Below, one piece after another: positions 2,197 through 45,215 of a stretch of 64,000 bases of DNA. Below the pieces are notes generated by a model that did no database searches, had not been told where the DNA came from, and saw only the letters and a list, made by a program, of their open reading frames with translations. Position 1 is the stretch's first letter, and each line of letters begins with the position of its first letter. The position numbers and the translations under genes are program-made. This DNA is from Magnetococcales bacterium (GTDB lineage: Bacteria > Pseudomonadota > Magnetococcia > Magnetococcales > JADGCH01): the NCBI GenBank assembly GCA_015229115.1, contig JADGCH010000002.1, positions 1 to 64,000 of the forward strand. Direction: 5' to 3'.

Positions 2197-4587
2197 TCAG
2201 GCATCATGACCTCCGGTTGTTTGATCAATGATCTCCAGCAACCTGCTCTTGCGGATTGGTTTGGAGAGGTAGTTCTGCATACCTGCAGCCAGGCACTCCT
2301 GGCGGTCCTGGGCCATGGCATAGGCCGTCAAGGCAATGATCGGCAAGCGCGGCAACCCCTGTTGCTGTTCCCACTGACGCCACAGGCGCGTGGCGGTATA
2401 GCCATCCATGATGGGCATCTGGATATCCATCAGCACCAGATCGTAGCGTTCCTGTTTGAGCTTGGCCAACGCCATGGCACCATGATCGGCCACGGAAATC
2501 TGGTAAGGCCTACTACTGAGAAAGGCTTGCACCAGCAAACAATTGTCGTTGGAGTCATCCGCCAGCAGAATGCGCAGTGGCCTGCAACGGGCTGGCGTTG
2601 TCGTGGCTGACTGCTGGTCAGTCAATTCCCTATCAGGGATTGTCAAACCCAGCACTGTGGCAACAGTCAGCAACAATGGGGCGCGGCGAATCGGTTTGAC
2701 CAGGAAATGATGGATACCCAAGGCATCACAACGTTGTTGATCCTGGCTGCTGTGGTGGGAAGGCAGCATCATGACCGGCACGGCCGGATCACCGGCAGCA
2801 CGCCAGCATTCTGCCACCTGAAAACCATCCATGCCGGGCATCTGCACATCCAGCAACAGCAGGTGAAACAGGTTGACCCCTGCCCGTGCCCGCTCCAGCG
2901 CCAACAGGGCGGATGGACCATCCTCGGCTTCATCAACCAGGGCTCCGGCCTTGGTCAAAATATCGAACAGCACCAAACGGTTGATAGCATTGTCATCGAC
3001 CACCAGAATGTGTACGCCCTGCAGATTGGGCAACGTCACGGGAGCGATCTGGTCCGGACCTTTTGTCAGGGACAGCGTCAACTGGAAGGAAGAGCCCTTG
3101 CCAACGCTACTTTGCAGCTGGATATGACCGTGCATGCGTTCAACCAGACGTTTGACAATGGCCAAACCCAGGCCGGTACCGCCAAAACGGCGCGTGATGG
3201 AACTGTCGACCTGAACAAAATTATCGAAGATGGCTTCTTGTCGCTCCACCGGGATGCCTATGCCAGTATCGGTCACGGTGATCAGCAGCTCCACGTCCGA
3301 TGACTCGGCTGCAGCAGGATCAGCCCGTGCCACGCGCACTTCGATACCGCCCTGGTCGGTAAACTTGATGGCGTTATTGAGCAGGTTGAGCAGAATCTGG
3401 CGCAGCCGGACCGGGTCTCCCAGCAATATTTCCGGGATATCCGGCGCAATGTGCCAAGTCAGCTCCAGACCCTTGCTGCTGAGACGCTGAGTCACGATCT
3501 CACAGGTGCTCTCGATCTCTTCGACCAGGTTGAAAGCAACCTCTTCCAGTGACAGTTGACCGGCCTCAATCTTGGAAAAATCGAGAATGTCGTTGATGAT
3601 CCCCAGCAGGGTCTCACCAGCGGAACGAAACACCTGCACATATTTACGCTGTATGCCGGTCAGCGTGGTTTCCCATAGCAGATCGGCCATACCAAGAATG
3701 GCGTTCATCGGTGTACGGATCTCGTGGCTCATGGTGGCGACAAAATGGCTTTTGGCCTGACTGGCCTGCTCGGCCTGGCTTTTGGCCTCACGCAGCGACT
3801 GTTCCAGCCGTTTACGCTCGCTGATATCGCGTGCCGACGCATAGAGGTAGGGTTGTCCATCAAGCTGGATGCCCTTGGCATTGATCTCGGCATCGAACAC
3901 CGTACCATCCCTGCGGCGGTGTTTGGTTTCAAAAATGGCCGGCTGGCGCATCAGATCCTGGATGACCTGAACACACTGCTCTGGTGCGATGGTGGCATCC
4001 CAGTCAGTCACGTTGAGCATGATCACCTCATCCTTGCCATAACCCAGCGCCCTGGCAAAAGAATCGCTGCACTGGAACACGTTGCCCTGCTGGTCGAGTA
4101 TGTGGATGCCATCGCTGGCATTTTCCAGCAGAATCTGGTAGCGGTTGCGCTCCAGCTGCAGCAGTTCCAGGGTCTGCTGCTGACCCATCCGCAATTGGTA
4201 TAATTCAGTAAATATCCTGATTTTGGCCAGCAGGATGGTGGGGTCAAAGGGTTTTTCCAGATAATCAATACCACCCGAGGCGTAAGCCTGTAGCTGATGG
4301 TGCTGGTCTTTGAAAGCCGCAGTCAGAAAGATGATCGGGATCTGACTGGTCTGCTTAAACTCCTTGAGCATTTCTGCCACCTGATAACCACTCATGCCCG
4401 GCATGTTGACATCAAGGATGATCAAAGCCAAATCGTGTTCGACGACCAAGCCAAGCGCCTCTTCACCACTGCTGGCGGTGATGAGCTCGGCCTGCAGCGG
4501 TTGCAGCAGACGCCGCATCGCCAGCAGATTGGCCGATTGGTCATCAACAACCAGAATCTTCGGCCATGTCGTCCCGTGCGCGTTCAT
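2197..4587 (-). CDS. Hybrid histidine kinase (REC-PAS-HisKA-HATPase-REC-REC)
   Basis: Translation shows N-terminal REC (ILVVDDQSANLLAMRRLL...LIILDVNMPGMSGYQVAEML), PAS, H-box [23 protein letters not shown], HATPase [16 protein letters not shown], two further REC domains. Confidence 0.9.
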   Translation of the reverse strand: MNAHGTTWPKILVVDDQSANLLAMRRLLQPLQAELITASSGEEALGLVVEHDLALIILDVNMPGMSGYQVAEMLKEFKQTSQIPIIFLTAAFKDQHHQLQAYASGGIDYLEKPFDPTILLAKIRIFTELYQLRMGQQQTLELLQLERNRYQILLENASDGIHILDQQGNVFQCSDSFARALGYGKDEVIMLNVTDWDATIAPEQCVQVIQDLMRQPAIFETKHRRRDGTVFDAEINAKGIQLDGQPYLYASARDISERKRLEQSLREAKSQAEQASQAKSHFVATMSHEIRTPMNAILGMADLLWETTLTGIQRKYVQVFRSAGETLLGIINDILDFSKIEAGQLSLEEVAFNLVEEIESTCEIVTQRLSSKGLELTWHIAPDIPEILLGDPVRLRQILLNLLNNAIKFTDQGGIEVRVARADPAAAESSDVELLITVTDTGIGIPVERQEAIFDNFVQVDSSITRRFGGTGLGLAIVKRLVERMHGHIQLQSSVGKGSSFQLTLSLTKGPDQIAPVTLPNLQGVHILVVDDNAINRLVLFDILTKAGALVDEAEDGPSALLALERARAGVNLFHLLLLDVQMPGMDGFQVAECWRAAGDPAVPVMMLPSHHSSQDQQRCDALGIHHFLVKPIRRAPLLLTVATVLGLTIPDRELTDQQSATTTPARCRPLRILLADDSNDNCLLVQAFLSSRPYQISVADHGAMALAKLKQERYDLVLMDIQMPIMDGYTATRLWRQWEQQQGLPRLPIIALTAYAMAQDRQECLAAGMQNYLSKPIRKSRLLEIIDQTTGGHDA

Positions 4588-5189
4588 GAACGGTCCAGTT
4601 GCTGTTCAACGATACTTCTCAGCTGCCCGAACGAAATAGGCTTATGTAAAATCGGGATGTTGGCATCCAGTCCTCCCCGTTCAGCGATTTTCTCAGCCGT
4701 CAGAGAAGTGATGACAACAATAGAGCAGTGATGCAACCTGGAATTACGCCGAATACTACGGATCATCTGGAAACCATCCATCAAGGGGGTCATCAGGTCG
4801 GCCAGCAACATATCTGGTTTGTGGTAACCGGCCAGAATCAAACCATCAAAACCATTGTCGGCGGTCAGGATATCGATGGGCAGCTGCCAATTTTTGAAGA
4901 CCTCCACATAACTGCTCAACAGTACCTCGTCATCTTCGACAATCAGCAGACTCATCTTGCCAGTCGGCTTGTGAGTCGACTGGCCTGCTAATGCCGCCTC
5001 TCTCTTGCTAAGAATGGCATTGATGGAGGTACGTGCAATATGATAGTGCCCCCCTTCGGTCTGCCATGCCTTGAACAAACCGCGCATCATCCAGTTGTGA
5101 ATGGTGCGTTTGGAAACACCGAGCAATCGTCCGGCCTGTGCCGGCGTCACATAGTCACTGGTTTCTGCTGAAAGGGTATTCTGATCCAT
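4584..5189 (-). CDS. HTH (excisionase/BldC/MerR-like) DNA-binding domain fused to a C-terminal receiver domain
   Basis: N-term DYVTPAQAGRLLGVSKRTIHNWMMRGLFKAWQTEGGHYHIARTSI (helix-turn-helix_17 style) then MSLLIVEDDEVLLSSYVE...DMLLADLMTPLMDGFQM...ILHKPI. Overlaps the downstream kinase by 4 nt. Confidence 0.85.
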   Translation of the reverse strand: MDQNTLSAETSDYVTPAQAGRLLGVSKRTIHNWMMRGLFKAWQTEGGHYHIARTSINAILSKREAALAGQSTHKPTGKMSLLIVEDDEVLLSSYVEVFKNWQLPIDILTADNGFDGLILAGYHKPDMLLADLMTPLMDGFQMIRSIRRNSRLHHCSIVVITSLTAEKIAERGGLDANIPILHKPISFGQLRSIVEQQLDRS

Positions 5190-5233
5190 CTCCTACCATC
5201 CTCTGAACGATTCTGCTTTTGGCTTTCCATTCT

Positions 5234-5269
5234 ATAAAGAACGTAAACATCGTAAATATCGTAAATCTA
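5234..5269. repeat. 9-bp tandem direct repeats (iteron-like), about 4 units: ataaagaac / gtaaacatc / gtaaatatc / gtaaatcta
   Basis: Read directly from sequence upstream of the HTH-REC gene (minus strand start 5189). Confidence 0.8.
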
Positions 5270-5302
5270 TCCTCAATGAAAGGCAAGGAAAGCGCCCCAA
5301 CG

Positions 5303-6814
5303 TCAGCAGGTCAACTCAACCATGGTCATATCATCGCTCTGTTCATGACCAGCCCGGTAACCTCTCAGGGTCCTCTGGATCATTTCGAGTGGCTCATCCA
5401 GATCCAGGATCTGTTGCAATAACCTCTCAAAGTTGTCTTGCCCAAACATCTCCCCATCGGCGTTGCTCTCTTCTGTCAGACCATCGGTATAAGCAAAAAA
5501 ACGGTCTCCAGGCTCGACCTGAATCATGACACCGGGACCACAGGGGCGGTTAACCAGGCCCCTGGCCATATGTCCGGACACCACTCTCTGATCAAGCCTG
5601 TTATGGCGAAACAGCAACATATCGGGGATGGCACAATTCCATACCAGCAGTTGCGTCCGCGATGGATCCAGCTCAAGAAAACCAGCAGCCAGAAACACAT
5701 TGGTGGGGGTTTTCTCATAAAGTCTCACGTTGACTTCGGTGATGATTTTGGCCATCGGCCAGCCCTTGCTGGTCATGGAGTAGAAAATATCCGAAACAAT
5801 GGGACCACCAATGGCAGCTGGTAAGCCATGACCGGTAAAATCGCCCAACAGGACATGCTGAGCACCATCCGGACTGAAAGCGGACAGCAGCACATCTCCG
5901 GCAGTCTTCTCGACCGGATCCTGCAAAAAACGCAGATGACGGCCATTAAACAGCTTCGATGAGCGCATGCGCGTAATAATTTCCTCGATAATCTGTCGTT
6001 CAAAGGCCAGCTTGTCGCGATGCCGGCGCAGCTCGTCCTCCATTTTTTTATGCTGGGTAATATCCTCGGTAAACATCAGAATACCGCCAACGGCTCCGGT
6101 TGGCTTGTGCCACGGTAACCCTTCCCAACGAAACCACCGCACCTCATGATCTGTCACCTGAATAGGGTCAGCATCGCTTTTCTCATGAGAGCCCTTCAGG
6201 CAGCGCTGGTGAATGGCCTGCCATTTTTCTGGCTGATCCGGCAATAACTCGTAATGCGACCGCCCTATGATGTTCCTGTTGACCAGATGATAATCCTCCT
6301 CCCAGCGTTCACTGACATGCAGATAGCGCATGTCCTGATCAAACATGGCTATCGCCACGGGACTATGCCGTGTGAAGAGATGGATGACCTCTTCATCCTG
6401 TTGCTGTTTGATAAGGGTACGTATCCGGTGCTCCAGCACAGCCCAGTTAATCGGTTTGGTAATGTATTCGTTGGCACCAGCCTCATAGGCCCGATCAACC
6501 GATTGCTGGTCATCCAGCGAGGTGACCATGATGATGGGCAACCGACTCTGCTGCAGACCACGGCGCAGTTGCAAACAGACATCAAAACCATCCATACTTG
6601 GCATGCTGGCATCAAGCAGCATCAGATCGGGCTTGTTACTGTCACAAAGACGCAAGGCCTGTTCGCCGCTATCAGCCGTCAGAACGTTGAAACCACGGCG
6701 CATCAGGAGCTGACAGGCAACGTCGACCATGACTTCATCGTCATCACAAACCAGAATGGTCAGTGGGTCACCCGCTGTCGTGTTGCCAGCTACCGTATCA
6801 ATGGGGTCAGTCAT
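5303..6814 (-). CDS. REC-PAS-PP2C (SpoIIE/RsbU-type) serine phosphatase
   Basis: REC (ILVCDDDEVMVDVACQLL...LMLLDASMPSMDGFDV), PAS (HSPVAIAMFDQDMRYLHVSERW), PP2C motifs VLLGDFTGHGLPAAIGG and FFAYTDGLTEESNADGEMFG. Confidence 0.9.
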   Translation of the reverse strand: MTDPIDTVAGNTTAGDPLTILVCDDDEVMVDVACQLLMRRGFNVLTADSGEQALRLCDSNKPDLMLLDASMPSMDGFDVCLQLRRGLQQSRLPIIMVTSLDDQQSVDRAYEAGANEYITKPINWAVLEHRIRTLIKQQQDEEVIHLFTRHSPVAIAMFDQDMRYLHVSERWEEDYHLVNRNIIGRSHYELLPDQPEKWQAIHQRCLKGSHEKSDADPIQVTDHEVRWFRWEGLPWHKPTGAVGGILMFTEDITQHKKMEDELRRHRDKLAFERQIIEEIITRMRSSKLFNGRHLRFLQDPVEKTAGDVLLSAFSPDGAQHVLLGDFTGHGLPAAIGGPIVSDIFYSMTSKGWPMAKIITEVNVRLYEKTPTNVFLAAGFLELDPSRTQLLVWNCAIPDMLLFRHNRLDQRVVSGHMARGLVNRPCGPGVMIQVEPGDRFFAYTDGLTEESNADGEMFGQDNFERLLQQILDLDEPLEMIQRTLRGYRAGHEQSDDMTMVELTC

Positions 6815-7187
6815 GGCGACAGATCTCCTGTATAGCAGTCACTATCCTGTTTTTTGTAAGTGGTTTGTTGAGAATGCAATCAGCTCCCAGATGGCGCAGT
6901 GTTTTCAGTGCGAATTGCGAATCAAGAAAATCCGATCCTCCCGTTATGACTATGATTTTGGGTCTTGTCGCTTGTCTAGTAATCGTCTTGACCACCTCAA
7001 TACCATCGGCTCTGGGCATGTAGATGTCGGTAACCACCAGGTCAAAGGTTTTTTCCTTCAATTTTTTCAAGCCCACCCAACCATCTTTGGCTCTCGAGAC
7101 CTTGAAGCCCAGATCGATGAAAATATGGTGCAGCAGCACTCGGACAATTTCATCGTCATCAATGATCAGAACGTGACGTGCAGTCAT
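6807..7187 (-). CDS. Single-domain response regulator (CheY-like receiver)
   Basis: HVLIIDDDEIVRVLLHHIF...DLVVTDIYMPRADGIEVVKTI...KPLTKNRI. Confidence 0.9.
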   Translation of the reverse strand: MTARHVLIIDDDEIVRVLLHHIFIDLGFKVSRAKDGWVGLKKLKEKTFDLVVTDIYMPRADGIEVVKTITRQATRPKIIVITGGSDFLDSQFALKTLRHLGADCILNKPLTKNRIVTAIQEICRHD

Positions 7188-7192
7188 TGATC

Positions 7193-9997
7193 CTATCTCC
7201 TCTCTGCACAGGTATCGAACAGCAGCGCGAGCAGTTGCTGCTGTACCCGTTCTCCTTCAGCCATCAGTTGAGCCATGATTTCAGCACCACGGGGTGACAG
7301 CCCTTCCTGGTGCAGACAAAGTTCCAGTCTGGCACAGAGATCCGAGAACGTCGTGGCGCCAAAAGTAGCCGACGAACCCTTCAGCTTGTGCGTTATCATA
7401 GCCACCTGCCCGGCGTCGTTGTCGCTCCACGCCTGCGCCAATGCCGCTAAACGCTGTGGAAAGCTATCGGAAAATCTACTCAGCACCGATTGGAAACCTG
7501 TGCCTACATCGGCCTTTAATTCAGCCAGTTTGACACGATTGATGGCCTCCTCCGAGCTGGCCACCATCTCGACGTCAAGTTGAGCGCACGCTGCCGGCAA
7601 CTGGCATGAGCACAGGTCTGCGTAGCTCATGATAACGTGCAGCAAATCGGCGCGACGCACTGGTTTCGTCAGATGCATGTCACACCCGGCTGCCATGGTT
7701 TGCTGGATATCCTCTTTCATGGAGTTGGCGGTCATGGCTACCACCGGAGTACGCCGCAAGCCGCGACTGGCTTCGATGGCCCGCCACTGGCGTGTTGTTG
7801 CCAGGCCGTCCATCACCGGCATCATGATATCCATTAAAACCAGATCGAACGACCTCGTTACCAGGAGCTGCAGCGCCTCTGTGCCGTTGCAGGCCTCCAC
7901 GATCTGGTGCGATGTTGTGTCAAGAAAGGCCTGCACCACCAGACGATTGTCTTCCATATCATCGACCAGCAGGATATGCAGACCCTGATCGTTCCGACTG
8001 CTATCCGGCTGCACTGCAACAGGCTGATCGTCCGGTAACGTCACGACCGCCTGGTCAATGGTTGAGGCATCAACTGGCGGCATGTGCACGGTGAAGTGAA
8101 AGACACTGCCTGTAGCCTTCTGACTCTCCACCCAGATTTTACCACCCATTTTTCTGACCAGTTGACGGCAAATGCTCAATCCCAGTCCAGTGCCGCCAAA
8201 ACGCCGGGTGGTGGAATTTTCGGCCTGGATAAAGGGCTGAAAAATGGTGTAGCACAACTCTTTTTCAATACCGATGCCGCTATCAGTTACCGAGCAGTAG
8301 AGCTTCTCATCGGCCCAGGCTGCAACGCGCACCACAATACTACCCTGTTCCGTGAATTTGATGGCGTTGTTGAGCAGGTTCAACAATACCTGCCGCCAGC
8401 GATGCACATCGCCACGCACCTGGAGCGGCAGGTCGGTAGCCAGCGAACAGGTCAGCTGCAGTCCTTTCTGGGTCGCAGCCTCGGTAACGAAGGCCACCGT
8501 CTGCCGTGTCTCAAGCGCTGGGTCAAAGACCCCATCCTCCAGATGTAACTGTCCGGCTTCGATCTTGGACAGATCGAGGATGTCGTTGATGAGCGTCAGC
8601 AGGGTCATACCGGCTTTGTTGGAAACATCAAGCAGATTTTTTTCCTTGTCGGACAGACGGGTCGATGCCGCCAGCACCTCGCCGACGCCAAGAATGGTAT
8701 TCAGAGGCGTTCGGATCTCGTGGCTCATGGTGGCCAGAAACCGGCTTTTAGCCTGATTGGCGTCCTCAGCCTCTTTTCTGGCTTTCTTGAGCGATTGTTC
8801 AAACAGCTTGCGTTCGGTGATATCGATGACGACACCATCCCAAACGCTATCGCCATTATCCTGCAGGATCGGAAACGACTGGATATGCAACCAGCGCAAC
8901 TGTTCCCCGACCCAAAAACGACCCTCCCACAGAAAAGGCATCTGGTTGGCCCGGACATACTGGTTCAGTTGCATGAACTGATCTTTTTCCTTGGCATAAA
9001 CCCTTGTGAAGGCCCGCCCGGCATCCTGCATGATGGCGTCATGATCAAGGCCTAACAATTCACAGAAGGGTTGGCTGACATAGTCAAATGAACGATTACC
9101 ATCCTGCTGCCAACGCAGCTTGTAAATACCCACCGGAACCCGTTCGGTCAGATCCCGATACTTCTTTTCGTTACGACGCAGCTCCGCTTCCATGCGCTTG
9201 CGCTCGGTGATGTCCTGGTGGGTGCCTACCATACGCAGTGGCTTGCCATCGTTGGTATACTGGACCACCTTGCCGCGATCCAGCACCCAGATCCAGTCAC
9301 CGCCTCTGGTCCGGAGACGGTGCTCTGTTTCGTACATGGGAGTCACCCCATACAGGTGCGCATCAAGAACCTCCAGGACAAGACCAACATCATCTGGATG
9401 GACCAGTTTCTGCCACGATCGCACATGGGGTTCGATGTCGCCGGGCTGATAACCGAGCATGGTCTGCCATTTTGGGCTGAAATAGACCGATCCAGTCTGG
9501 ATGTCCCAATCCCAGACGCCATCGTTGGCCCCCTCCAGAATAAAATGAAGGTGCTCATTGCTACTGACCAGCTGCTGGTACAGCTGTTTGGCCTCGCCTT
9601 TGGTTCTGTGAAGTTCGAGAAACAGATTGACCTTGGTCCGCAACACCTCATCGTGAATCGGCCTTTCGATATAGTCGATGGCTCCCGACTGATAACCTTT
9701 CAGACGATGCCATTCATCCCGGTAGGCAGCGGTCACAAACACGATGGGGATGTATTGGGTTTGCTCCAGTCCCCGTGCCATATCGGCCACTTCGTAACCA
9801 TCCATGTCGGGCATATCGACGTCAAGCAGCATCAACGCCAGCTCGTGATCCAGCAACAGAGCAAGCGCCTCATTGCCTGATTGTGCCGTAATGACATTGG
9901 CGTCAATATCCTGCAAAATGGCTAATAATGCCTTGATATTGGCCTGTTGGTCATCGACTATGAGTATATTGGGACGCGTTGACGCATTCATGGGCAT
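7193..9997 (-). CDS. Hybrid histidine kinase (REC-PAS-PAS-HisKA-HATPase-REC-HPt)
   Basis: Probable start MPMNASTRPNILIVDDQQ at ~9997 rather than 10099. H-box [23 protein letters not shown], HATPase GTGLGLSICRQLVRKM, REC DLVLMDIMMPVMDGL, HPt THKLKGSSATFG. Confidence 0.9.
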   Translation of the reverse strand: MPMNASTRPNILIVDDQQANIKALLAILQDIDANVITAQSGNEALALLLDHELALMLLDVDMPDMDGYEVADMARGLEQTQYIPIVFVTAAYRDEWHRLKGYQSGAIDYIERPIHDEVLRTKVNLFLELHRTKGEAKQLYQQLVSSNEHLHFILEGANDGVWDWDIQTGSVYFSPKWQTMLGYQPGDIEPHVRSWQKLVHPDDVGLVLEVLDAHLYGVTPMYETEHRLRTRGGDWIWVLDRGKVVQYTNDGKPLRMVGTHQDITERKRMEAELRRNEKKYRDLTERVPVGIYKLRWQQDGNRSFDYVSQPFCELLGLDHDAIMQDAGRAFTRVYAKEKDQFMQLNQYVRANQMPFLWEGRFWVGEQLRWLHIQSFPILQDNGDSVWDGVVIDITERKLFEQSLKKARKEAEDANQAKSRFLATMSHEIRTPLNTILGVGEVLAASTRLSDKEKNLLDVSNKAGMTLLTLINDILDLSKIEAGQLHLEDGVFDPALETRQTVAFVTEAATQKGLQLTCSLATDLPLQVRGDVHRWRQVLLNLLNNAIKFTEQGSIVVRVAAWADEKLYCSVTDSGIGIEKELCYTIFQPFIQAENSTTRRFGGTGLGLSICRQLVRKMGGKIWVESQKATGSVFHFTVHMPPVDASTIDQAVVTLPDDQPVAVQPDSSRNDQGLHILLVDDMEDNRLVVQAFLDTTSHQIVEACNGTEALQLLVTRSFDLVLMDIMMPVMDGLATTRQWRAIEASRGLRRTPVVAMTANSMKEDIQQTMAAGCDMHLTKPVRRADLLHVIMSYADLCSCQLPAACAQLDVEMVASSEEAINRVKLAELKADVGTGFQSVLSRFSDSFPQRLAALAQAWSDNDAGQVAMITHKLKGSSATFGATTFSDLCARLELCLHQEGLSPRGAEIMAQLMAEGERVQQQLLALLFDTCAERR

Positions 9998-10022: not shown

Positions 10023-10051
10023 TTGACAGTCGCACCCCTCATCCGTATAAT
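10023..10051 (+). promoter_or_regulatory. Consensus sigma70-like promoter TTGACA-N17-TATAAT
   Basis: TTGACA at 10023-10028, 17-nt spacer, TATAAT at 10046-10051; upstream of the kinase starting at ~10125. Confidence 0.75.
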
Positions 10052-10053
10052 AC

Positions 10054-10089
10054 GTGAAAATCGTAAAGAATGTGCACATCGTAAACCTA
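10054..10089. repeat. 9-bp tandem direct repeats: gtgaaaatc / gtaaagaat / gtgcacatc / gtaaaccta
   Basis: Period-9 units immediately 3' of the TATAAT box; same unit type as 5234-5269. Confidence 0.75.
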
Positions 10090-10124
10090 TCACAGACAAA
10101 AGACAAGCAGAGATTGTAAAAAAA

Positions 10125-13100
10125 ATGATTCAATGGGAATCCCTGTTCAATCATGCTCCGCAAGGCATGGCCATCGTCTCGCTACAGGGCCGGTTTCTCA
10201 AGGTTAATCAGGCTCTGTGCGATATGGTTGGCTATCAACCGGAGGAGTTGCTGGCGACTGATTTTCAATCGATTACCCATCCGGATCACTTGGTCAATGA
10301 TCTGCGCGATAGGCAACGGATGCTGGCTGGTGGCTGCGGCTCTTTTCAGAAAGAGAAGCGTTACATCCACAAGCAGGGCCATGCGGTCTGGGCACGGCTG
10401 CGTGCCGTTCTGGTCCGTGATGAACAGCAGCAGCCGCTTCATGTCATGGCCTACATTCAGGATATGACCGCCCAGTTAGACCATTTCTTTACAGCTGCGG
10501 TCGACCTGTTCTGCATTGCCGGCACCGATGGCTATTTTCACCGCCTCAACGCCATCTGGCAGGAGGTATTGGGTTATTCGACCGTTGAGTTGATGGCCAC
10601 CCCCTGGATCGATTTTGTCCACCCGGACGATGTCCCCAAAACCAGACAGGCCCTGACCGATCTGAAACAGCAGAAGGTGTTGCACAGCTTCATCAATCGT
10701 TATCGCTGCAAGGATGGCCACTATCGCTGGCTGGAGTGGACCTCGACACCGGTCGACGATGTCATTTATGCCACGGCACGCGATATCACCGAAAAGGTCT
10801 ACAACGATGAGATCGTGCGCAGTAACCGGCAACAGTTGCATGAGATCACCAGCACACTGATCGAAGGACTGTTTGTCGTTGATCGCAGTCGACTGATTTC
10901 CTTCATCAATCCCATGGCCCTGGAGCTGCTGGATTATACAGCCAGTGAGGTATTGGGGCGGCCATGCTCGGTACTACTCCGCTGCGCAACAGATGGTGGC
11001 CTGGTCTGTTGTGGCCACGATTGCCCGATACTGGCCATTTTCAGTCATGGTCAGACCATCGTGACCGATGACCACTTTTTTCAGAATCGCCAGGGCAACC
11101 CGTTTCCGGTTGCCATCATGGCTGCACCGATCATGCGGGCAGACGCTGTCGATGCCGTTGTGGTGACGTTCAGCGACATTACCCAGCAAAAGGTGGCGCA
11201 ACAGGCGCTGATAAAAGCCAATCTGGCCCTGCAGCGCAGCAACGACTTTCTGGAACAGCTGTTCAACACGACTCACCTCTCCATTGTCTTTCTGGATCGC
11301 AACTTCCGTTTTATCCGTGTCAATCGCTCCTATGCCCTGGCCTGCGGCCATGACCCTGATTTTTTTATCGGTCAAAATCATTTTGACCTCTATCCCAACG
11401 CTGACAATGAGGTCATTTTCCGGCAGGTGGTGACCAGCGGTGAAACCTATACCGCCGTGGCCAAGCCGTTCGAGTTTCCCGACCATCCAGAATGGGGCGT
11501 CACTTACTGGGACTGGAGTCTGTATCCGATTCATAACACCCAGGGACAGGTGGAGTGGCTGATTTTTACTCTGCTGGACGTCACCCGTAGCAAACGTAAC
11601 GAACTATCCATGACACAGGCCAAAGAAGAAGCCGACCGTGCCAACCAGGCCAAAAGTGAGTTTCTGGCGATGATGAGCCATGAGATCCGTACGCCCATGA
11701 ACGGTATCCTCGGCATGGCCGATCTGCTGGCCGATGACCCGCTATCCGATCAGGCACGATCGCGGGTAGCCGTGATCCAGGGATCCTGCCAGACCTTATT
11801 GACCGTCATCAACGATATTCTCGATTTTTCCAAGATTGAATCGAGCAAGCTGATTCTGGAGGTAGCGCCTTTTCAGTTGCAGCCGTTGTTGCAGCAACTG
11901 GCTCAACTGTTTCAGATAGCGGCTCAGCACAAAGGCATTGCCTTCACCATCGACATCAACGGCGTCATCCCGACGATCGTCCATGGTGATGCCACGCGGG
12001 TACGTCAGATCCTGACCAATCTGCTGGCCAATGCCATCAAATTTACCGATCAGGGCTATGTCCGTTGCCAGGTTGCTGTCGTGCAACAGCAGCAGCACAA
12101 CTGCCGGGTCGCTTTTGTGGTACAGGATAGCGGTATTGGTATTGATCCCAACCATCTTCAACAGATTTTCCAGCCGTTTTCTCAGGCCGAATCCTCGATT
12201 ACGCGGCGTTTTGGCGGTACCGGATTGGGGCTGGCCATTGCCCATAATCTGGTGACCCTGATGCAGGGAACCATTGAAGTGGTCAGCACGATCGGCCAGG
12301 GCACACGGTTTGAAGTGGTGCTACCTTTTGCAACAGGGACAGCGACCGACAGCATCGCGACGCTGACATCAGCAGCTCATGGGGCAGCGTGGCAACAAGA
12401 ATCCCTCGGTCATCACCGTGTGCTGGTCGTGGAAGATGATCCTGTCAACAGTGCTGTCATACAGGGCATGCTGGCACGCTATGGCCTGCAACCCGATTTG
12501 GCTGAAAATGGCCTTCTGGCACTGCAATCGTGCCGTCGTCAACGCTATGATCTGGTGTTGCTGGATTGCCAAATGCCGGAAATGGACGGCTTTGAGGTCT
12601 GCCGCATCCTGCGGGCTGAGGAACGTGACAGCCGTCATACACCGGTTGTAGCCTTGACAGCACACGCCACCATCCCTATCCAGCAACGCTGTGTATCGGT
12701 TGGCATGGATGGCTTTCTGACCAAGCCGATTGATCGTGGCAAGCTGCACGAAGTTCTGACACGCTGGCTGGTACAGCCGCCACCGGCAGCCGCAGTCCCC
12801 AGCACCGCCTCACCGGCCATGGCAACCCTGGCATCGGTGCCAATCCTGGATGAAGAACAGTTACTGACCTTTCACCAGAATGTTGGCAGTGGATTTGATT
12901 CGGTCATTGGCATGTATCTGAATTTACTTCCTAAAAGAGTTCGATCCATCCTTGACAGTATCGCCCAGAACAAACCACAGGCGCTGTTTCGTGCTGCTCA
13001 TACCCTCAAGGGGTCCAGTCGCCAGGTAGGCTGTGCGCGCCTGGCTACACTGTGCGAACAGCTGGAACGGCTGAGTGAGTCTGACCTGACGGATGGTGCT

Positions 13101-13172
13101 GATGGTCTGTCTCATCAGCTGAACGTCGAGGCCGATCGGGCCTCCGGGGCGCTACAGAACAGGATACACTAG
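10125..13172 (+). CDS. Hybrid histidine kinase (multiple PAS, HisKA, HATPase, REC, HPt)
   Basis: Likely start [24 protein letters not shown] at 10125; the ORF-track start at 9873 overlaps the divergent gene. H-box [43 protein letters not shown], HPt [13 protein letters not shown]. Confidence 0.9.
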
Positions 13173-16488: not shown

Positions 16489-17061
16489 ATGATCGTAACA
16501 GAGGGCAACGACGGGGTGCGGATTGAGGAGGCCCGCTGGATGGCCCGAGCTGCCCTACATGAAGAAACGGCTTGCCGGTTATTGGTCAATCGTTATCTCA
16601 AGCCTTTGCTCAATTTGGCTGCCCGGCTGTTGCAAAACCGTGCTGACGCTGAAGACATGGTGCAAGAGGCCTTCATCCGCCTCTGGCGTGAAGCGCCTCA
16701 CTGGCGTGGACAGGCAAAGGTTGGCACGTGGCTGCACCAAATTGTTTATCATGCCTGTATTGACCGACTGCGACAGCGCACGGTTCTTCCTCTGGAAGAG
16801 CTGGAAGAACCGTTATACTCAGAACCAGAAACCGATCCACTGGCTACTCTGCAACTGCAAGAAGCAGCACAGCTGGTCGAGCAGGCTATGGCTGCCCTAC
16901 CGCCGCGCCAAAGGGCAGCCATCCTGATGGTGCATTATCAGGAATTTCATCAGGTCGACGCTGCCCAGGTGCTGGGCATTGGTGTTGAGGCGCTGGAGTC
17001 TCTCCTGGCCCGGGGACGGCGCAAATTACGGCAACTGCTGGCAGAATCGATCAAGGGCTAA
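16489..17061 (+). CDS. ECF-type RNA polymerase sigma factor
   Basis: Sigma region 2 LQNRADAEDMVQEAFIRLWREAPHWRGQAKVGTWLHQIVYHACIDRLRQR; region 4 ALPPRQRAAILMVHYQEFHQVDAAQVLGIGVEALESLLARGRRKLRQLL. Confidence 0.92.
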   Translation: MIVTEGNDGVRIEEARWMARAALHEETACRLLVNRYLKPLLNLAARLLQNRADAEDMVQEAFIRLWREAPHWRGQAKVGTWLHQIVYHACIDRLRQRTVLPLEELEEPLYSEPETDPLATLQLQEAAQLVEQAMAALPPRQRAAILMVHYQEFHQVDAAQVLGIGVEALESLLARGRRKLRQLLAESIKG

Positions 17062-17077: not shown

Positions 17078-17524
17078 ATGAAAGACAACCATGACACGTT
17101 ACAGCAGCTCCATGCCGATCGCATCAAAACACTGTTGGCAGCCTATGGCAGTGCCTCGACACACTGGCCAGCGCACGAACGGACTGCAATCCCTGCTGAC
17201 GTGCAGCAAGATGCGACCCTGCTGCAGCACTGGCATCGGGCTCAAACCCTGGATCGGCTACTGGACCAGATAACCATGGACCATCCAACCCCGGCACTGG
17301 AATGTGCGATCCTGCAACAGAGCCGACCATTCTGGCATCGTTGCATGGCCATGATCTGGCCCTTGGATCAAGGACGCTGGTTGGCGGCGACGATGCTGGC
17401 TTCCCTGTTACTGGGAGTGGTTGTTGGCGATTGGCTGGTTCGGTCAGAACTGACTCCAGATGACAACGACCCCCCGTGGCAGCTGGTTTTTGGACCCAAC
17501 TGGAATGGAGTTGAACAGCCATGA
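17078..17524 (+). CDS. Single-TM protein, probable anti-sigma factor of the adjacent ECF sigma
   Basis: ATG at 17078 (MKDNHDTLQQLHADRIKTLLAAYG...), preceded by AGGAGG; one TM WLAATMLASLLLGVVVGDWLV; position between sigma factor and metal sensor. Confidence 0.6.
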   Translation: MKDNHDTLQQLHADRIKTLLAAYGSASTHWPAHERTAIPADVQQDATLLQHWHRAQTLDRLLDQITMDHPTPALECAILQQSRPFWHRCMAMIWPLDQGRWLAATMLASLLLGVVVGDWLVRSELTPDDNDPPWQLVFGPNWNGVEQP

Positions 17525-18084
17525 TGCCCATCCGGCCCTCTCAATGGCAACCATGGCTGATGGCAGGGTCGCTGTTGCTCAACCTGTTTCTGGCTGGGGT
17601 GCTGTTCGGTATCTGGCAACCCTGGAACAGCGATCAGCAGTCGCCATGGCTGAAAAACGGTCCAGGCATGATGCAAGGCTGGTTTTTGCCCCAGAGCGAC
17701 CCTGCCCTGGCCACCGTGATTGATCAGGTGTGGCGCCAACATGGTGCCCATATCCAGCAACAGATGCAAACGTTGCAACAGGCCCGACAAGCGGTTCATG
17801 AGCAACTGGCTGCGCAGCTGGTGGACGAAGCAGCGCTCCATGCGGCTTTTTCCCAACTGCGACGGGCAACCTATCAAGCCCAGGAGTCTTCCCATCATGC
17901 CGTGCTGGCCATGGCACAGCGACTGTCACCCGAGCAACGACGCGTTCTGGCCAATCCTGGCAAGGATGGTCATCAGCGCCGCCACCCAGGCGGTTGTGGC
18001 ATGGGACAACAGCGGAGTGTCAGTCCTTTGGGAGACCTCCAGCAACATGGCGCTGTTGCACCAGTGCGTACACAACCGGAATGA
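17521..18084 (+). CDS. Periplasmic heavy-metal sensor (CnrX/ZraP/Spy-like)
   Basis: N-terminal TM then long helical hairpin HGAHIQQQMQTLQQARQAVHEQLAAQLVDEAALHAAFSQLRRATYQAQESSHHAVLAMAQRLSPEQRRVL; gene context. Confidence 0.7.
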   Translation: MMPIRPSQWQPWLMAGSLLLNLFLAGVLFGIWQPWNSDQQSPWLKNGPGMMQGWFLPQSDPALATVIDQVWRQHGAHIQQQMQTLQQARQAVHEQLAAQLVDEAALHAAFSQLRRATYQAQESSHHAVLAMAQRLSPEQRRVLANPGKDGHQRRHPGGCGMGQQRSVSPLGDLQQHGAVAPVRTQPE

Positions 18085-21000
18085 CCACCAGCGTCAGGAT
18101 GGTGGAGGAGATCATGCCTCCCACCATTGGAGCAGCGATGCGGCTCATGACCTCCGAACCGGTACCGCTGCTCCAGAGGATGGGCAACAGACTGGCCATA
18201 ATAGCCACCACGGTCATCATTTTCGGCCGTACCCGCTCCACGGCTCCTTCCATCACCGCTTGGTAAAGATCGGTCAAGGCTGGTTGGCGTTGCTGCTCCT
18301 GGCAGCGCTGCCGGATCTGCTGCCAGGCATGATCCAGATAGATCAGCATCACCACACCAGTTTCAGCGGCAACACCGGCTAGGGCGATGAAACCGACCGC
18401 CACCGCTACCGACAGATGATAACCCAGTAACCACAGCAGCCAAAACCCGCCAATCAGAGCAAAAGGGACCGACAGCATGACGATCAGTGTCTCGGTCATA
18501 CGCCTGAAATTGAGATAAAGCAGTAGCAAAATGATCAACAGCGTAACCGGTACCACAATGACCATCCGGTTGAGCGCACGCTGCATGTACTCAAACTGAC
18601 CACTCCAGCTAATGTAAAAACCGGGTGGCATTTTGACCTGCTCGGCCACCAAACGCTGGGCCGCAGCAATATAGGCACCGATATCGCTGTTGCGGGTATC
18701 GACATAAACATAGGCTGATAGCAGACCATTCTCGGTGCGGATGGCTGGTGCGCCCCTGGCAAGGGTCACCTGGGCCACCTGCCCTAGTGGAATCATGGTA
18801 CCATCCATGCTGGTCAGCAACACTTCACGGGCGATCTGCTGTGGATCGGACCGACTGTCACGCGGGTAGCGGATGGCGACGGTGTAGCGCTCGCGACCAT
18901 CCAGCAGCGTGGTGACCGCTTCACCACCCAACGCCATGGCAACAACCTGCTGCACATCACCCACTGTCAAGCCATAACGAGCCAACTGCTGACGCTGGGG
19001 TTCGATGTTGAGATAGTAGCCACCGGTCAGCCGCTCGGCATAGGCACTGCTGGTATCCGGCAGCTGTCGTAGCACGGTTTCAATCTGCTGCGCCAGTTGC
19101 TCCATCACGGTCAGGTCGTTGCCGAACACCTTAATGCCTACCGGTGTGCGAATACCGGTCGATAACATATCGATGCGGGCCTTGATCGGCATGGTCCAGG
19201 CATTGGAGACGCCGGGCAGCTGCAACGCCTGATCCATCTCCGCCACCAAGGCATCGATCGTCAGGCCAGCACGCCACTGTGACGGCGGTTTCAGGTTGAT
19301 GATGGTCTCGAACATCTCGGTCGGCGCCGGATCGGTAGCGCTGTTGGCACGGCCAGCCTTACCCCAGACCGATTCCACCTCTGGAAAGGTCTTGATGATG
19401 CGATTCTGCAGTTGCAGCAATTCAGCCGCCTTGGTAATCGATAGACCGGGCAGCGTCGTCGGCATGTAGAACAGCGTCCCCTCATTAAGAGTCGGCATGA
19501 ACTCGCTGCCCAGCTTGGTGACCGGATAAACCGAAGCCACCATGGCCGCCAGTGCCAACAGCAGGGTGAGCCGTTTCCAGCGCAATACCAACCGGATCAC
19601 GGGTCGGTAGAGCCAGATCAGCAGTCGGTTGAGTGGATTACGTGCCTCCAATGGAATGTGGCCACGAATAAACAGCCCCATCAACACCGGCACCAGCGTC
19701 ACCGATAGCAACGCTGCACCAGCCATGGCAAAGGTCTTGGTCCAGGCCAGCGGGGCAAACAGGCGCCCCTCCTGCGCTTCGAGCGTGAAGACCGGCAAAA
19801 ACGACACCGTGATGATCAGCAGAGAAAAGAATAGCGCCGGTCCCACCTCACGACAGGCATCCAGAATGGCCTGCTGTCGTGATTGCCCAGGTTGTAGCCG
19901 CTCCAGGTGTTTATGGGCGTTTTCGATCATGACAATGGCGGCATCGATCATGGCACCGATGGCAATGGCCATACCACCCAGACTCATCAGGTTGGAGTGG
20001 ATGCCCAGGCCATACATAGCGATAAAAGCCAGCAGCAACCCGACCGGCAACATCAGGATAGCCACCAGGGCCGAACGCAGATGCAGCAGGAACAGCACGC
20101 AGACGGCCGCCACAATGAGCGACTCCTCCAGCAAGGTCTGCTTCAGGGTTGCTATGGCACGATGAATCAGATCGGAACGATCATAGACCGGTGTCAGGGT
20201 CATCCCGTCCGGCAGGCCGGCGGTCACCTCACGGAGACGCTGCTTCAGGTTGTGAATCACCTCCAGGGCATTCTGGCCATAACGGGCCATGGCGATGCCA
20301 GAAACCACCTCTCCTGTGCCGTTGAGCTCGGTGATACCACGCCGTTCATCGGGCACCAACTCCACCCGGGCCACATCACGCAGCAACACCGCTGTGCCCT
20401 GGCTTGCCTTGACCACCAGCTGCTCCAGATCAGCGCTATGGCGCAGATAGCCGCGTCCGCGCACCATGTATTCGGTTTCAGCCATCTCGATCACCCGACC
20501 ACCGACGTCACGGTTAGAGTCGCGAATGACTTGGGCCAACCGTTCCAGCGACAAACCATAGCCACGCAGCTTGACCGGATCGACCGTGACCTGATAGGTC
20601 TTGACAAAACCACCGACCGAAGCCACCTCGGCAATACCGGGCGTGCGCGTCAGCTGGTAACGCAGATACCAGTCCTGGATGGAACGCAACTCGGCCAAGG
20701 TGTAATGGGCGGCGGTGACCACATATTGATAGACCCAGCCGACACCGGTGGCATCAGGCCCCAGCTGTGGTAACACGCCGGGTGGCAGCCGCCCACTGAC
20801 GACGTTGAGATATTCCAGCACCCGCGACCTGGCCCAGTAAATATCGGTGCCATCGTCGAAAATGACGTAGACAAACGAGGCACCGAAAAAGGACAAGCCG
20901 CGCACCACCCGTGCATGCGGCACCGACAGCAGAGCCGTGGTCAGAGGATAGGTCACCTGGTCCTCGACCACCTGCGGCGCCTGTCCGGCATAGTCGGTGT

Positions 21001-21148
21001 AGACGATCACCTGAACATCGGACAGATCCGGCAGGGCATCAAGCGGAATGCGCAGCACGGCATAGACACCGGCGATCAGGACGAACAGGGTTAGCAGCAG
21101 GACCAGCAGCGGATTGCGACTGGACCAGGAGATCACGGCGGCCAGCAT
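18020..21148 (-). CDS. cusA: Heavy-metal efflux RND transporter, CusA/CzcA family
   Basis: MLAAVISWSSRNPLLVLLLTLFVLIAGVYAVLRIPLDALPDLSDVQVIVYTDYAGQAPQVVEDQVTYPLTTALLSVPHARVVRG and other CusA-type motifs. Confidence 0.95.
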   Translation of the reverse strand: MLAAVISWSSRNPLLVLLLTLFVLIAGVYAVLRIPLDALPDLSDVQVIVYTDYAGQAPQVVEDQVTYPLTTALLSVPHARVVRGLSFFGASFVYVIFDDGTDIYWARSRVLEYLNVVSGRLPPGVLPQLGPDATGVGWVYQYVVTAAHYTLAELRSIQDWYLRYQLTRTPGIAEVASVGGFVKTYQVTVDPVKLRGYGLSLERLAQVIRDSNRDVGGRVIEMAETEYMVRGRGYLRHSADLEQLVVKASQGTAVLLRDVARVELVPDERRGITELNGTGEVVSGIAMARYGQNALEVIHNLKQRLREVTAGLPDGMTLTPVYDRSDLIHRAIATLKQTLLEESLIVAAVCVLFLLHLRSALVAILMLPVGLLLAFIAMYGLGIHSNLMSLGGMAIAIGAMIDAAIVMIENAHKHLERLQPGQSRQQAILDACREVGPALFFSLLIITVSFLPVFTLEAQEGRLFAPLAWTKTFAMAGAALLSVTLVPVLMGLFIRGHIPLEARNPLNRLLIWLYRPVIRLVLRWKRLTLLLALAAMVASVYPVTKLGSEFMPTLNEGTLFYMPTTLPGLSITKAAELLQLQNRIIKTFPEVESVWGKAGRANSATDPAPTEMFETIINLKPPSQWRAGLTIDALVAEMDQALQLPGVSNAWTMPIKARIDMLSTGIRTPVGIKVFGNDLTVMEQLAQQIETVLRQLPDTSSAYAERLTGGYYLNIEPQRQQLARYGLTVGDVQQVVAMALGGEAVTTLLDGRERYTVAIRYPRDSRSDPQQIAREVLLTSMDGTMIPLGQVAQVTLARGAPAIRTENGLLSAYVYVDTRNSDIGAYIAAAQRLVAEQVKMPPGFYISWSGQFEYMQRALNRMVIVVPVTLLIILLLLYLNFRRMTETLIVMLSVPFALIGGFWLLWLLGYHLSVAVAVGFIALAGVAAETGVVMLIYLDHAWQQIRQRCQEQQRQPALTDLYQAVMEGAVERVRPKMMTVVAIMASLLPILWSSGTGSEVMSRIAAPMVGGMISSTILTLVVIPVVYALVQQRHVAGGLPKD

Positions 21149-21159
21149 GGCAACTCTCC

Positions 21160-22458
21160 TCAGTGACCCGTATGGCCGGTGTGATTGGTGGTAGTAGAGG
21201 TAGCAGGAGCCGTGAAACTGCTCAGCGCCGCCTTGAGGTTGCTTTCAGCATCGATGAGAAAATTGGCTGACACCACCACTTGATCGCCGATATCGACCCC
21301 ATCCATGACCTCGATCAGATCATCGCTAGAGCGCCCCAGTGTGACGGTACGGGGTTCAAAACGACCCTCATCGAGCTGCAGCAGCACCACCTGCCGCTTG
21401 CCGCTGTCGATAACGGCCGACCTCGGTACGACAACCACCTCACTGGGCGTGACGGCAGAGATCTCGACACGAGCCAACATAGCCGGCTTGAGCTGCTGCT
21501 GTGGGTTGTCGAGCTCAATCCGCACCGACAACGTACGGGTGTCCGACTTGAGCACTGGATAGATATAGCGGATGACACCGGTGAACGACTGTTGCGGCAG
21601 GGCCGACAAGCGCACGGTGGCGGCCATGCCAACGGTAACCGCCGCCGCATCCTGCTCGAACAGATCAGCAATGACCCACACCGTTGACAGATCGGCAATC
21701 TGGAACAGCATCTCACCCGGCATGACCCGCATCCCGGGCAAGGCCTTCTTCTCCAACACCACACCAGAGGCCGGGGCATGAAGAGTCAAGGTACGTTGTA
21801 TCGGACCGGAACTGGTCAACCGCTTCAGGGTGGCTGGTGCAATACCCCAGTTCTGCAGCCGCAACAGCGCTGCAGTTGCCAGTTGCTGCATGCCGACACG
21901 TGCCTCTGCCCCCGCCTGTTGCAAGGCTAGCAGACCCCGACTAGCAACCTGGTACTCCTGCTGTGCTGCCACCAGCTCCGGGCTGTAGACCTCGAACAGT
22001 GGATCACCACGACTCACCTGCTGTCCGGTAACGTTGACATGCAGACGCTCGATATAGCCCTCAAAACGGGTGGTTACCGCATGCAGACGGCGTTCATCCA
22101 GCTCCACCCGACCGGCGGCCTGGATCCGTCGTTCCAAGGTCTGGGTGCGTACCAGCTCGGTTTTAACACCGAGCTGCTGCATTTTTCCGGCAGCCACCAC
22201 CACCTGACCAGCGGTCGATGGTGTGGGTGACTCGCCCTCGTAGACCGGCAGATAGTCCATCCCCATCGGATCTTTTTTCGGTACCGGTGAAACGTCGGAT
22301 AGTCCCATCGGGTTGCGGTAATAGAGCAGTTTGCGACCGGAAGAGGAGAGTTCGGGCGTGGCAGGCGTGCCCTCGTGGGGCGGGTTGTAACGGCCCCACT
22401 CGTAACCGCCACCAGCCGCTGCAACCAGCATGATGATCGATAGCATCACCCGCATCAT
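21160..22458 (-). CDS. cusB: CusB-family efflux periplasmic adaptor
   Basis: KLLYYRNPMGLSDVSPVPKKDPMGMDYLPVYEGE heavy-metal-binding motif plus MFP core; adjacent to cusA and cusC. Confidence 0.92.
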   Translation of the reverse strand: MMRVMLSIIMLVAAAGGGYEWGRYNPPHEGTPATPELSSSGRKLLYYRNPMGLSDVSPVPKKDPMGMDYLPVYEGESPTPSTAGQVVVAAGKMQQLGVKTELVRTQTLERRIQAAGRVELDERRLHAVTTRFEGYIERLHVNVTGQQVSRGDPLFEVYSPELVAAQQEYQVASRGLLALQQAGAEARVGMQQLATAALLRLQNWGIAPATLKRLTSSGPIQRTLTLHAPASGVVLEKKALPGMRVMPGEMLFQIADLSTVWVIADLFEQDAAAVTVGMAATVRLSALPQQSFTGVIRYIYPVLKSDTRTLSVRIELDNPQQQLKPAMLARVEISAVTPSEVVVVPRSAVIDSGKRQVVLLQLDEGRFEPRTVTLGRSSDDLIEVMDGVDIGDQVVVSANFLIDAESNLKAALSSFTAPATSTTTNHTGHTGH

Positions 22459-23741
22459 GGCTCCTCTCCCAGCAGCTGTGTCAGTTCGGCCAGCGCCATC
22501 TGCACGGCACTCTGAGCCTTGATGTGGTTCTGCTGCACCTGGCGCAGCTGGCGTTGACTCTCCAGTAGCGTGGTAAAATCGACCCGTCCAGCCTGGTAGC
22601 CTGACAGGGCCGACTGATGGTTGATCTGGGTCTGGGGCAACAACGTGGTCCGGATGAGTTGTTCGTTGCGCCGCGCTGTACCGATATCGGTCAAGGTGGT
22701 CGCCAGCTGTGCCAGAAGTTGATTGGCGGTGGCCTCCTGCCGCTGTTGTGCTACAGCAAGCATTTCATGGGCTTCGCGTTCGCGTGCCCGTCGTGCCTGC
22801 TGTTGCAACGGGATGTTAATCTCGGCCATCACCTCCCATTCACGAACCGCGTTGCGGTACTGGATCGGTGACAGACCAACGGTGACATCGGGATAACGGT
22901 TGCGGTAGGTCAAATCACGGTTTTTCTCGGCACCTAGCACCCGGGACGAGGAGAGCAACCATTGGGGATTGCGCTGGCGCAAACGCTGTTCCAGTTGATC
23001 GAGCTGGAGTCTGTCGTCATCGGGCAGCGGTGGCAACGGCTGCGCTGGTGCCAGCACAGCATTGGCTGGCCGACCGAGCAAGGCATTGAGGCGATGATCC
23101 AGGTGGTGCTGTTCGGTCTCGAAGGCCAACTGTTCACTGCGCAGACTGGTCTGCTCCATCTGGACGCGAATGACATCCTGCTGCATGGTCAGACCGGCGG
23201 CATAACGGCTGCGCACTGTCTGTTCCAGCTGCCGCATCAGGTCGACGGTTTGCTGCAACAGCTGCCGGTTCTGCTGGCCAAAATAACGTTCAATCTGGAG
23301 ACTGCGCAGGCGTGCTACCAGATCAACCCAGGCTGAAGTCACCTGACTTTCAGCTCCAGAGGCTTCTGCAGCAGCCACTTGCTGCTGTAGATCGCGCTTG
23401 CCAAACCAGGGCAGATCCTGCATCAGCAGATAACGGGTGCTACCGACCCGGCTGGGATCAAGCGTGGGTGACTGCTCACCGAAGCGGGTGATATCGCGCC
23501 ACTCGACCCGGAATTTCGGATCAGCCAGAGCCCCAGCTCCGGCAGCACGGGCTTCAGCAGCCAGAGACTCATGGTACATGGCTTGATAATCGGGATTGTG
23601 CTGACGTGCGTAATCGAGCAGCCCGGACAGGGTATCTCCCAGCATCCCCTCCTCGGCCAGCAGCGGAGTAGTGGTCCAGCAACCCACCATCAAAATTGCG
23701 TAGCCTAGTATCCGTCGAATGATGGGTCGAAATCGGGTCAT
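22455..23741 (-). CDS. cusC: TolC/CusC-family outer membrane efflux protein
   Basis: Likely start MTRFRPIIRRILGYAILMVGCWTTTPLLAEEG at 23741 (ORF-track start at 24017 would overlap recA); two OEP repeats. Confidence 0.85.
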   Translation of the reverse strand: MTRFRPIIRRILGYAILMVGCWTTTPLLAEEGMLGDTLSGLLDYARQHNPDYQAMYHESLAAEARAAGAGALADPKFRVEWRDITRFGEQSPTLDPSRVGSTRYLLMQDLPWFGKRDLQQQVAAAEASGAESQVTSAWVDLVARLRSLQIERYFGQQNRQLLQQTVDLMRQLEQTVRSRYAAGLTMQQDVIRVQMEQTSLRSEQLAFETEQHHLDHRLNALLGRPANAVLAPAQPLPPLPDDDRLQLDQLEQRLRQRNPQWLLSSSRVLGAEKNRDLTYRNRYPDVTVGLSPIQYRNAVREWEVMAEINIPLQQQARRAREREAHEMLAVAQQRQEATANQLLAQLATTLTDIGTARRNEQLIRTTLLPQTQINHQSALSGYQAGRVDFTTLLESQRQLRQVQQNHIKAQSAVQMALAELTQLLGEEP

Positions 23742-23774
23742 GGATCGTGGTTTCCTTGCCTGCTCTTGACGTCC

Positions 23775-23797
23775 ACCATCGTGCATGCCATGATGGT
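23775..23797. promoter_or_regulatory. Dyad ACCATCGTG-CATGC-CATGATGGT in the cusC/recA divergent intergenic region
   Basis: 9-bp arms with one G-T position, 5-nt spacer, read directly. Confidence 0.5.
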
Positions 23798-23838
23798 CTA
23801 ATAAGTCTATTATCACTTGTATCGTCAAAGGAGGCAAC

Positions 23839-24873
23839 ATGGATGATGAAAAAGTCAGGGCGCTTAATGCCACAGTAGCCCAGATTGAACGCCAGTTTGG
23901 CAAGGGTTCAATCATGCGCATGAGCGCCGATGCGCTGCAGGATATTGCCGTGGTCTCAACCGGCTCGCTCAGCCTCGATCTGGCACTGGGTGTTGGGGGG
24001 TTGCCGCGTGGCCGCATCGTCGAAATCTACGGACAGGAGTCCTCCGGTAAAACGACGCTGGCGCTGCACGTGGCGGCACAGGTGCAACAGGCCGGTGGGG
24101 TGTCTGCCTTTGTCGATGCTGAACATGCCCTTGATCCAGGCTATGCCCGCCGCATTGGTGTTAACGTCGACGAGCTGCTGATTTCACAGCCCGACACCGG
24201 CGAACAGGGACTGGAAATTACCGATCTTCTGGTACGATCCAACGCTGTCGATCTGGTAGTAGTCGACTCGGTAGCGGCCCTGACTCCCAAGGCCGAGATC
24301 GAAGGCGACATGGGCGATGCCCACGTCGGCCTGCAGGCACGACTGATGTCGCAAGCGTTGCGCAAACTAACCGGCAGCATCTCACGCTCCAATGCCATCG
24401 TCATCTTCATCAATCAGTTGCGCATGCGCATTGGTGGCATCGCCTATGGGGCCCCCCCTGAGGTAACCACCGGTGGTAATGCCCTTAAATTCTACGCCTC
24501 GATACGTCTTGACATCCGGCGCTCGAACCTGAAAGACAAAGCCGATGAAGTCATCGGCAATCGTTGTCGGGTGCGTGTGGTCAAGAACAAGGTAGCGCCA
24601 CCGTTTCGGCTGGCTGAATTCGACCTACCCTACGGTGAATCGATCTCGGTCGAGGGGGAGGTGATTGATCTCGGTTCGGAGCTGGGCATCATTGAGAAAT
24701 CAGGTTCCTGGTATGCCTATAGCGGCGATCGGCTGGGACAGGGACGTGAAAACGCCAAAAAGTATCTGCGTGACAATCCCCAACTGTTGCGCAAACTGGA
24801 AGATCAGATTCGTATTGCCAATGGCTCGCGTTCGCGCTATGGCGAGGAACTGGCCGAAATCGTTCGTGAATGA
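23839..24873 (+). CDS. recA: Recombinase RecA
   Basis: [14 protein letters not shown] Walker [69 protein letters not shown]. Confidence 0.97.
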
Positions 24874-44609: not shown

Positions 44610-45215
44610 ATGACATCCAAAATAAGCCAGTCGCGCTTGTGGCTGATTTTTGCGGGCGGCATGGCTGCCGGATCGATTCTGTTAGCTGGATTCCACTTCA
44701 CCCTGATGGATGGCTTTACCAACAGCCTGGAAATGTGCATCTCCTGCCACGAGATGGATGGCGTCTACAAGGAATACCAAAAGAGTGCGCACTACCAGAA
44801 CCGGTCGGGGGTGCGCGTCGTCTGCTCCAGCTGTCATATACCCCACGGCAAGGGAGTGGTCGACTATGTCGACAAGCTGATGGACAAGGTGATCGTGGGT
44901 GGACGCCATCTCTATCATCATGTCATCGGCACTTACCCCGATGAAGCGTCCTTTGCCAAAAACCGCTACCGGCTAGCCCAGAGTGTGCTGGAGAACATGC
45001 GTCAGCGCGACTCGAAGGAGTGCCGCCAGTGTCACAGCTACCAGGCGATGCAGCTGTCAGCCCAGGAGCGTGCTGCGGCCAGCAAACATGACAAGATGAT
45101 GAAAGACAGCACCAAAACCTGTGTTGACTGCCACACCGGTTTTGTCCACGAGGAACAACAGGAACCGGCTGCGGTCGTCGATAACCCAAAGGGCGATAAC
45201 CAGAAAGGAAACTGA
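44610..45215 (+). CDS. NapC/NirT-type tetraheme cytochrome c
   Basis: N-terminal TM anchor and four CxxCH: CISCH, CSSCH, CRQCH, CVDCH. Confidence 0.93.
   Translation: MTSKISQSRLWLIFAGGMAAGSILLAGFHFTLMDGFTNSLEMCISCHEMDGVYKEYQKSAHYQNRSGVRVVCSSCHIPHGKGVVDYVDKLMDKVIVGGRHLYHHVIGTYPDEASFAKNRYRLAQSVLENMRQRDSKECRQCHSYQAMQLSAQERAAASKHDKMMKDSTKTCVDCHTGFVHEEQQEPAAVVDNPKGDNQKGN

Follow-up and report, generated by a model that had tools for sequence, protein, structure and literature searches.

In the 64-kb window (the whole stretch of DNA analyzed, 64,000 nucleotides), two short arrays of 9-bp direct repeats are, at a probability of roughly 0.8, operators of a response regulator encoded next to one of them, designated HTH-REC (4584-5189, minus strand). 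Through them the protein would regulate its own gene and a kinase promoter. We favor this reading of the sequence because such arrays are conserved ahead of HTH-REC genes with an excess of self-match at lag 9, because their units covary with the recognition helix, because the protein resembles BldC, and because the arrays are rare in the genome.

Array 1 (5230-5271, minus strand) lies 41 to 82 bp ahead of the HTH-REC start codon and, read on the minus strand from 5271 down to 5230, consists of GATAGA followed by the four 9-bp units TTTACGATA TTTACGATG TTTACGTTC TTTATAGAA. Array 2 (10050-10091, minus strand), read from 10091 down to 10050, has GATAGG and the units TTTACGATG TGCACATTC TTTACGATT TTCACGTAT in strict 9-bp register, and sits where two hybrid kinase genes diverge, at the head of the minus-strand operon. 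Both arrays are oriented along this phosphorelay operon. An ungapped alignment gives 28 identical bases of 42, and the best 34-mer shared by the two has 25 identities, whereas 500 shuffles gave no more than 23 and reversing the orientation gave 17. Taken by itself, array 1 is the stronger (lag-9 self-match, p<0.001); array 2, whose units 2 and 4 are degenerate, is weaker for that reason (p=0.019 at lag 9; p<0.001 at lag 18). A matrix made from array 1 found array 2 as the only other match within 10 kb, scoring 26.2 bits where simulated sequence reached at best 13.7 and the next real site 12.9. The first-pass annotation had seen the same 9-bp iterons at both sites, which the cross-match and the shared bases bear out, and had called for a genome-wide iteron search. 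In that search, the pattern TTTACG-N3-TTTACG-N3-TTTACG with up to two mismatches occurred at array 1 and array 2 alone in the entire 3.15-Mb assembly. Three mismatches added one match within an open reading frame (60753-60785), a level equal to that of the reversed-pattern control. No third array was found by the pattern searches across the assembly, on which our genome-wide statements are based.

The arrays are embedded in a cluster of signaling genes whose domains were assigned with Pfam. On the minus strand the order is a hybrid kinase with PAS-HisKA-HATPase-REC-Hpt architecture that leads the operon (7193-9997, start ATG 9997 or 9991), a stand-alone receiver (6807-7187), a REC-PAS-SpoIIE phosphatase (5303-6814), array 1, HTH-REC, a hybrid kinase (PAS-HisKA-HATPase with three receiver matches; 2197-4587) that overlaps the HTH-REC stop, and an Hpt protein (1318-2142). 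Divergent from these, on the plus strand, is a multi-PAS hybrid kinase with REC and Hpt domains (10125-13172). Its predicted promoter is of the sigma-70 type, TTGACA (10023-10028)-N17-TATAAT (10046-10051), the sole perfect match to this sequence in the window; the annotation had placed it correctly, with the repeats directly after it. The same annotation gave the kinase 1099 residues, but the TTG at which that reading frame starts (9873) lies upstream of the promoter. Since ATG 10125 fits the promoter, a protein of 1015 residues is probable. Array 2 covers the predicted plus-strand transcription start. On the minus strand, weak promoter-like sites identified by consensus match only have their -35 in unit 2 of each array, TGCACA-18-TATTAT at array 2 (10047-10076) and TTTACG-16-TAGAAT at array 1 (5229-5256). 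In one genome of the same genus, 69% complete, no clear ortholog of the kinase at array 2 was found, the best matches having 38-48% identity. Elsewhere in the window, a protein with nucleotide cyclase and 2Fe-2S ferredoxin domains (45768-47435) is encoded near a NapC/NirT-type cytochrome (44610-45215), and a sigma-70-family factor with regions 2 and 4 (16489-17061) is followed by a heavy-metal-resistance (Metal_resist) protein (17521-18084), beyond which an RND efflux system lies on the opposite strand (18020-24017).

The proposed reader of both arrays combines an N-terminal BldC-type winged HTH (HTH_17, PF12728, E=7e-10) with a C-terminal receiver (PF00072, residues 82-194), an assignment from Pfam and a structural model. 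The acidic and lysine residues conserved in receivers, including the phosphoacceptor Asp and the Lys, are present: D86, D131 and K183 are invariant and D87 is at least 90% conserved among 50 sequences, and T161 is invariant among 10. By sequence, the best PDB match of the HTH is to the BldC-DNA structures 6ama and 6amk, and these are also the closest fold to its AlphaFold model, built as a monomer, with an rmsd of 1.0-1.2 Å. The wing (window 5037-5054) has the sequence GGHYHI in place of the GGHRRI found in almost every homolog; apart from this protein, at least 90% of sequences keep the second Arg.

BldC of Streptomyces (6ama, 6amk; PMC5859096) shares with HTH-REC the HTH_17/MerR-like winged HTH and, as here, fixed-direction 9-bp direct repeats with at least two units near promoters, one protomer occupying each repeat head to tail (PMC5859096). 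However, BldC has 68 residues and no receiver, whereas HTH-REC carries one at its C-terminus, belongs to gene clusters that are phosphorelays, and has unit sequences that diverge between paralogs. Given the receiver, HTH-REC is a different protein from BldC that has a reader of the BldC type. The excisionases Xis and RdfS (4j2n, 8dgl; PMC11963761) also have this fold and form head-to-tail oligomers, but they function in recombination, and RdfS has yielded no consensus for its binding sites (PMC11963761), in contrast to the regular motif here. Classical MerR proteins are coiled-coil dimers on palindromic operators; HTH-REC is not one of them, as its Pfam match to MerR falls below the cut-off, its model has a single helix (53-71) leading to the receiver, and its candidate operators are direct repeats. 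Members of the OmpR/PhoB family are, like HTH-REC, response regulators able to bind direct repeats, with an N-terminal receiver and a DNA-binding domain of another type. HTH-REC falls outside this family too: its Pfam scan contains HTH_17, the receiver and the sub-threshold MerR match but no Trans_reg_C, and the OmpR/PhoB-like period near 10-11 bp is absent upstream of its homologs, where lags 10 and 11 have no excess. The receiver of a 'DNA-binding response regulator, merR family' from Colwellia (3cnb) matches that of HTH-REC; the receiver alone was solved, and the entry title mentions no operator. Searches of the open-access literature turned up work on BldC and on excisionases, but no paper that describes regulators of this class or the operators they use. 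Among the listed NCBIfam models none spans full HTH-REC at its cut-off, the matches being mainly to the receiver.

Close homologs of HTH-REC occur in 39 of 48 genomes of the same order, mostly amid genes for kinases, receivers and Hpt proteins. We measured self-match in the 200 bp upstream of 50 homologs and obtained a mean z of 2.79 at lag 9, with all other lags from 5 to 15 within 0.3 of zero. At lag 9, 27 of the 50 had p<=0.01 and 23 were above it, and when 20 kb was scanned, the top lag-9 site lay at -400 to -20 of the HTH-REC gene in 24 of 50; for other lags this held in 4-7 of 50. A second sample, 17 homologs from another class, drawn after the lag-9 and motif predictions were fixed in writing, gave a mean z of 2.42 at lag 9 and 0.05-0.49 at other lags. 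As a control, 147 upstream regions of neighboring phosphorelay genes had no lag-9 excess; as a class these promoters lack arrays, so an element common to phosphorelay promoters in general is disfavored. In other proteobacteria, periodicity ahead of Q-type homologs was weaker and partly unspecific, so arrays are not universal ahead of HTH-REC homologs in the phylum.

Individual homologs have their own units, including eight copies of TTTGCAAGA at L026, GTCGATTTT at L039 and L052, and GCGAGAAAT at L037. In genomes G022 and G027, the GTCGATTTT array was found genome-wide at the HTH-REC promoter, except for one match with three mismatches, which is no more than the reversed-pattern control gave. 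A second array at a kinase promoter also recurs, between divergent kinases in G016 and G039 and beside a kinase-Hpt gene in G021, G029 and G046 (by matrix search in the first four, by eye in G046). All five parallel array 2, with a hybrid kinase by a divergent membrane kinase. One genome (G003; L035/L090) has a GTCTT-type array and, farther from the HTH-REC gene (~276 bp upstream) and beside a divergent kinase start, another 9-bp array of repeated CATGAAAAA. On a Limnohabitans plasmid (L215:3810-4353), genes for a PemK/MazF-type toxin-antitoxin pair lie after the HTH-REC homolog, with cas2 further on.

The sequence of the units appears to follow the recognition helix. The two residues before the conserved Trp33 are H31 and N32 in HTH-REC, T29 and R30 in BldC, and K and G in L039. 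Unit sequence covaried with these two residues in a partial Mantel test with receiver identity held constant (reached in 7 of 5000 permutations) and in a test on distant pairs (0 of 5000). In motif counts by residue class, H-Y went with TTGCA, other H with TTGCA or TRCGA, K, T or S with GTC, and Q with TTGATA. Because these motifs were picked after the arrays had been inspected, we rely instead on the partial Mantel and distant-pair tests. Paralogs within one genome (G022, G027) differ in unit sequence. The second sample of 17 homologs had mostly K-type members, and inspection by eye of three Q-type plasmid homologs found no TTGATA array, contrary to the prediction for this type. Together, the conservation of arrays in other genera, their tracking of the helix and their restriction to two promoters here support the earlier proposal, made for this cluster, of a local regulon run through a rare tandem operator with HTH-REC as its putative reader.

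A reader other than HTH-REC, for example an OmpR-type response regulator with HTH-REC adjacent only incidentally, is improbable. OmpR-type regulators bind direct repeats too and the genome encodes many receivers, but the excess is at lag 9 alone and not at 10-11, while PhoP of M. tuberculosis recognizes 7-bp motifs with 4-bp spacers. Moreover, the unit sequence follows the recognition helix of HTH-REC, and the other cluster proteins scanned with Pfam have no DNA-binding domain. More improbable still is that the repeats are chance or low-complexity periodicity, or an element of the transcript instead of an operator. The moderate periodicity of array 2 by itself would allow for chance, but the cross-match of the two sites, their genome-wide rarity and the lag-9 excess in two independent sets speak against it; a transcript element is disfavored, as no Rfam match was found.

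The sign of regulation is less clear-cut. HTH-REC could instead activate the two weak minus-strand promoters from their -35 region and block the strong divergent one, which we consider possible but less likely. The shared orientation toward the minus-strand operon suits it, as does unit 2 of both arrays, a poor -35 with a usable -10 at 16-18 bp; L051 and L056 have the same geometry with TTGATA as the -35. In other homologs, however, the array is downstream of the best promoter, favoring repression, and at whiI BldC represses (PMC5859096). Across homologs, the array is downstream of the -10 in 6, overlaps the promoter in 7, is upstream of the -35 in 5 and has no scored promoter in 13, a mixed geometry that does not settle the question. 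The array positions fit repression by HTH-REC somewhat better than activation, and repression is plausible. The first-pass annotation had favored repression of the plus-strand kinase, a view that our analysis bears out only in part. We consider the minus-strand operon at least as likely a target, because the arrays run along it and unit 2 coincides in both with the -35 of a weak minus-strand promoter-like site.

For binding, cooperativity, sign and the effect of phosphorylation, we infer the following scheme, with HTH-REC as the reader. One winged-HTH protomer would occupy each 9-bp unit, head to tail and in one direction, as in BldC. At array 1, HTH-REC would control the gene that encodes it as well as the downstream kinase and Hpt genes; array 2 would extend this control to the operon head (hybrid kinase, receiver and SpoIIE phosphatase) and to the divergent hybrid kinase. 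Repression would be the likely outcome, through occlusion of the -35 on the minus strand and of the start on the plus strand. Phosphorylation of the C-terminal receiver, for which kinases and Hpt proteins are encoded nearby, may alter protomer assembly.

We further think it reasonably probable that HTH-REC represents a class of response regulators whose receivers control the head-to-tail assembly of BldC-type HTH domains on 9-bp iterons. Members would be common throughout the order to which the window belongs and would occur in at least one further class; two recognition-helix residues would set the iteron, and codes would differ between paralogs. If so, a single protein would unite two-component phosphorylation with assembly of the BldC type on direct repeats, and nature would offer many regulator-operator pairs that differ in code. 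Changing H31 and N32 to K and G, as in L039, would then be expected to shift preference from TTTACGATN toward TTTTGTCGA, and both the rules of recognition and the control of head-to-tail assembly by the receiver would be directly testable.
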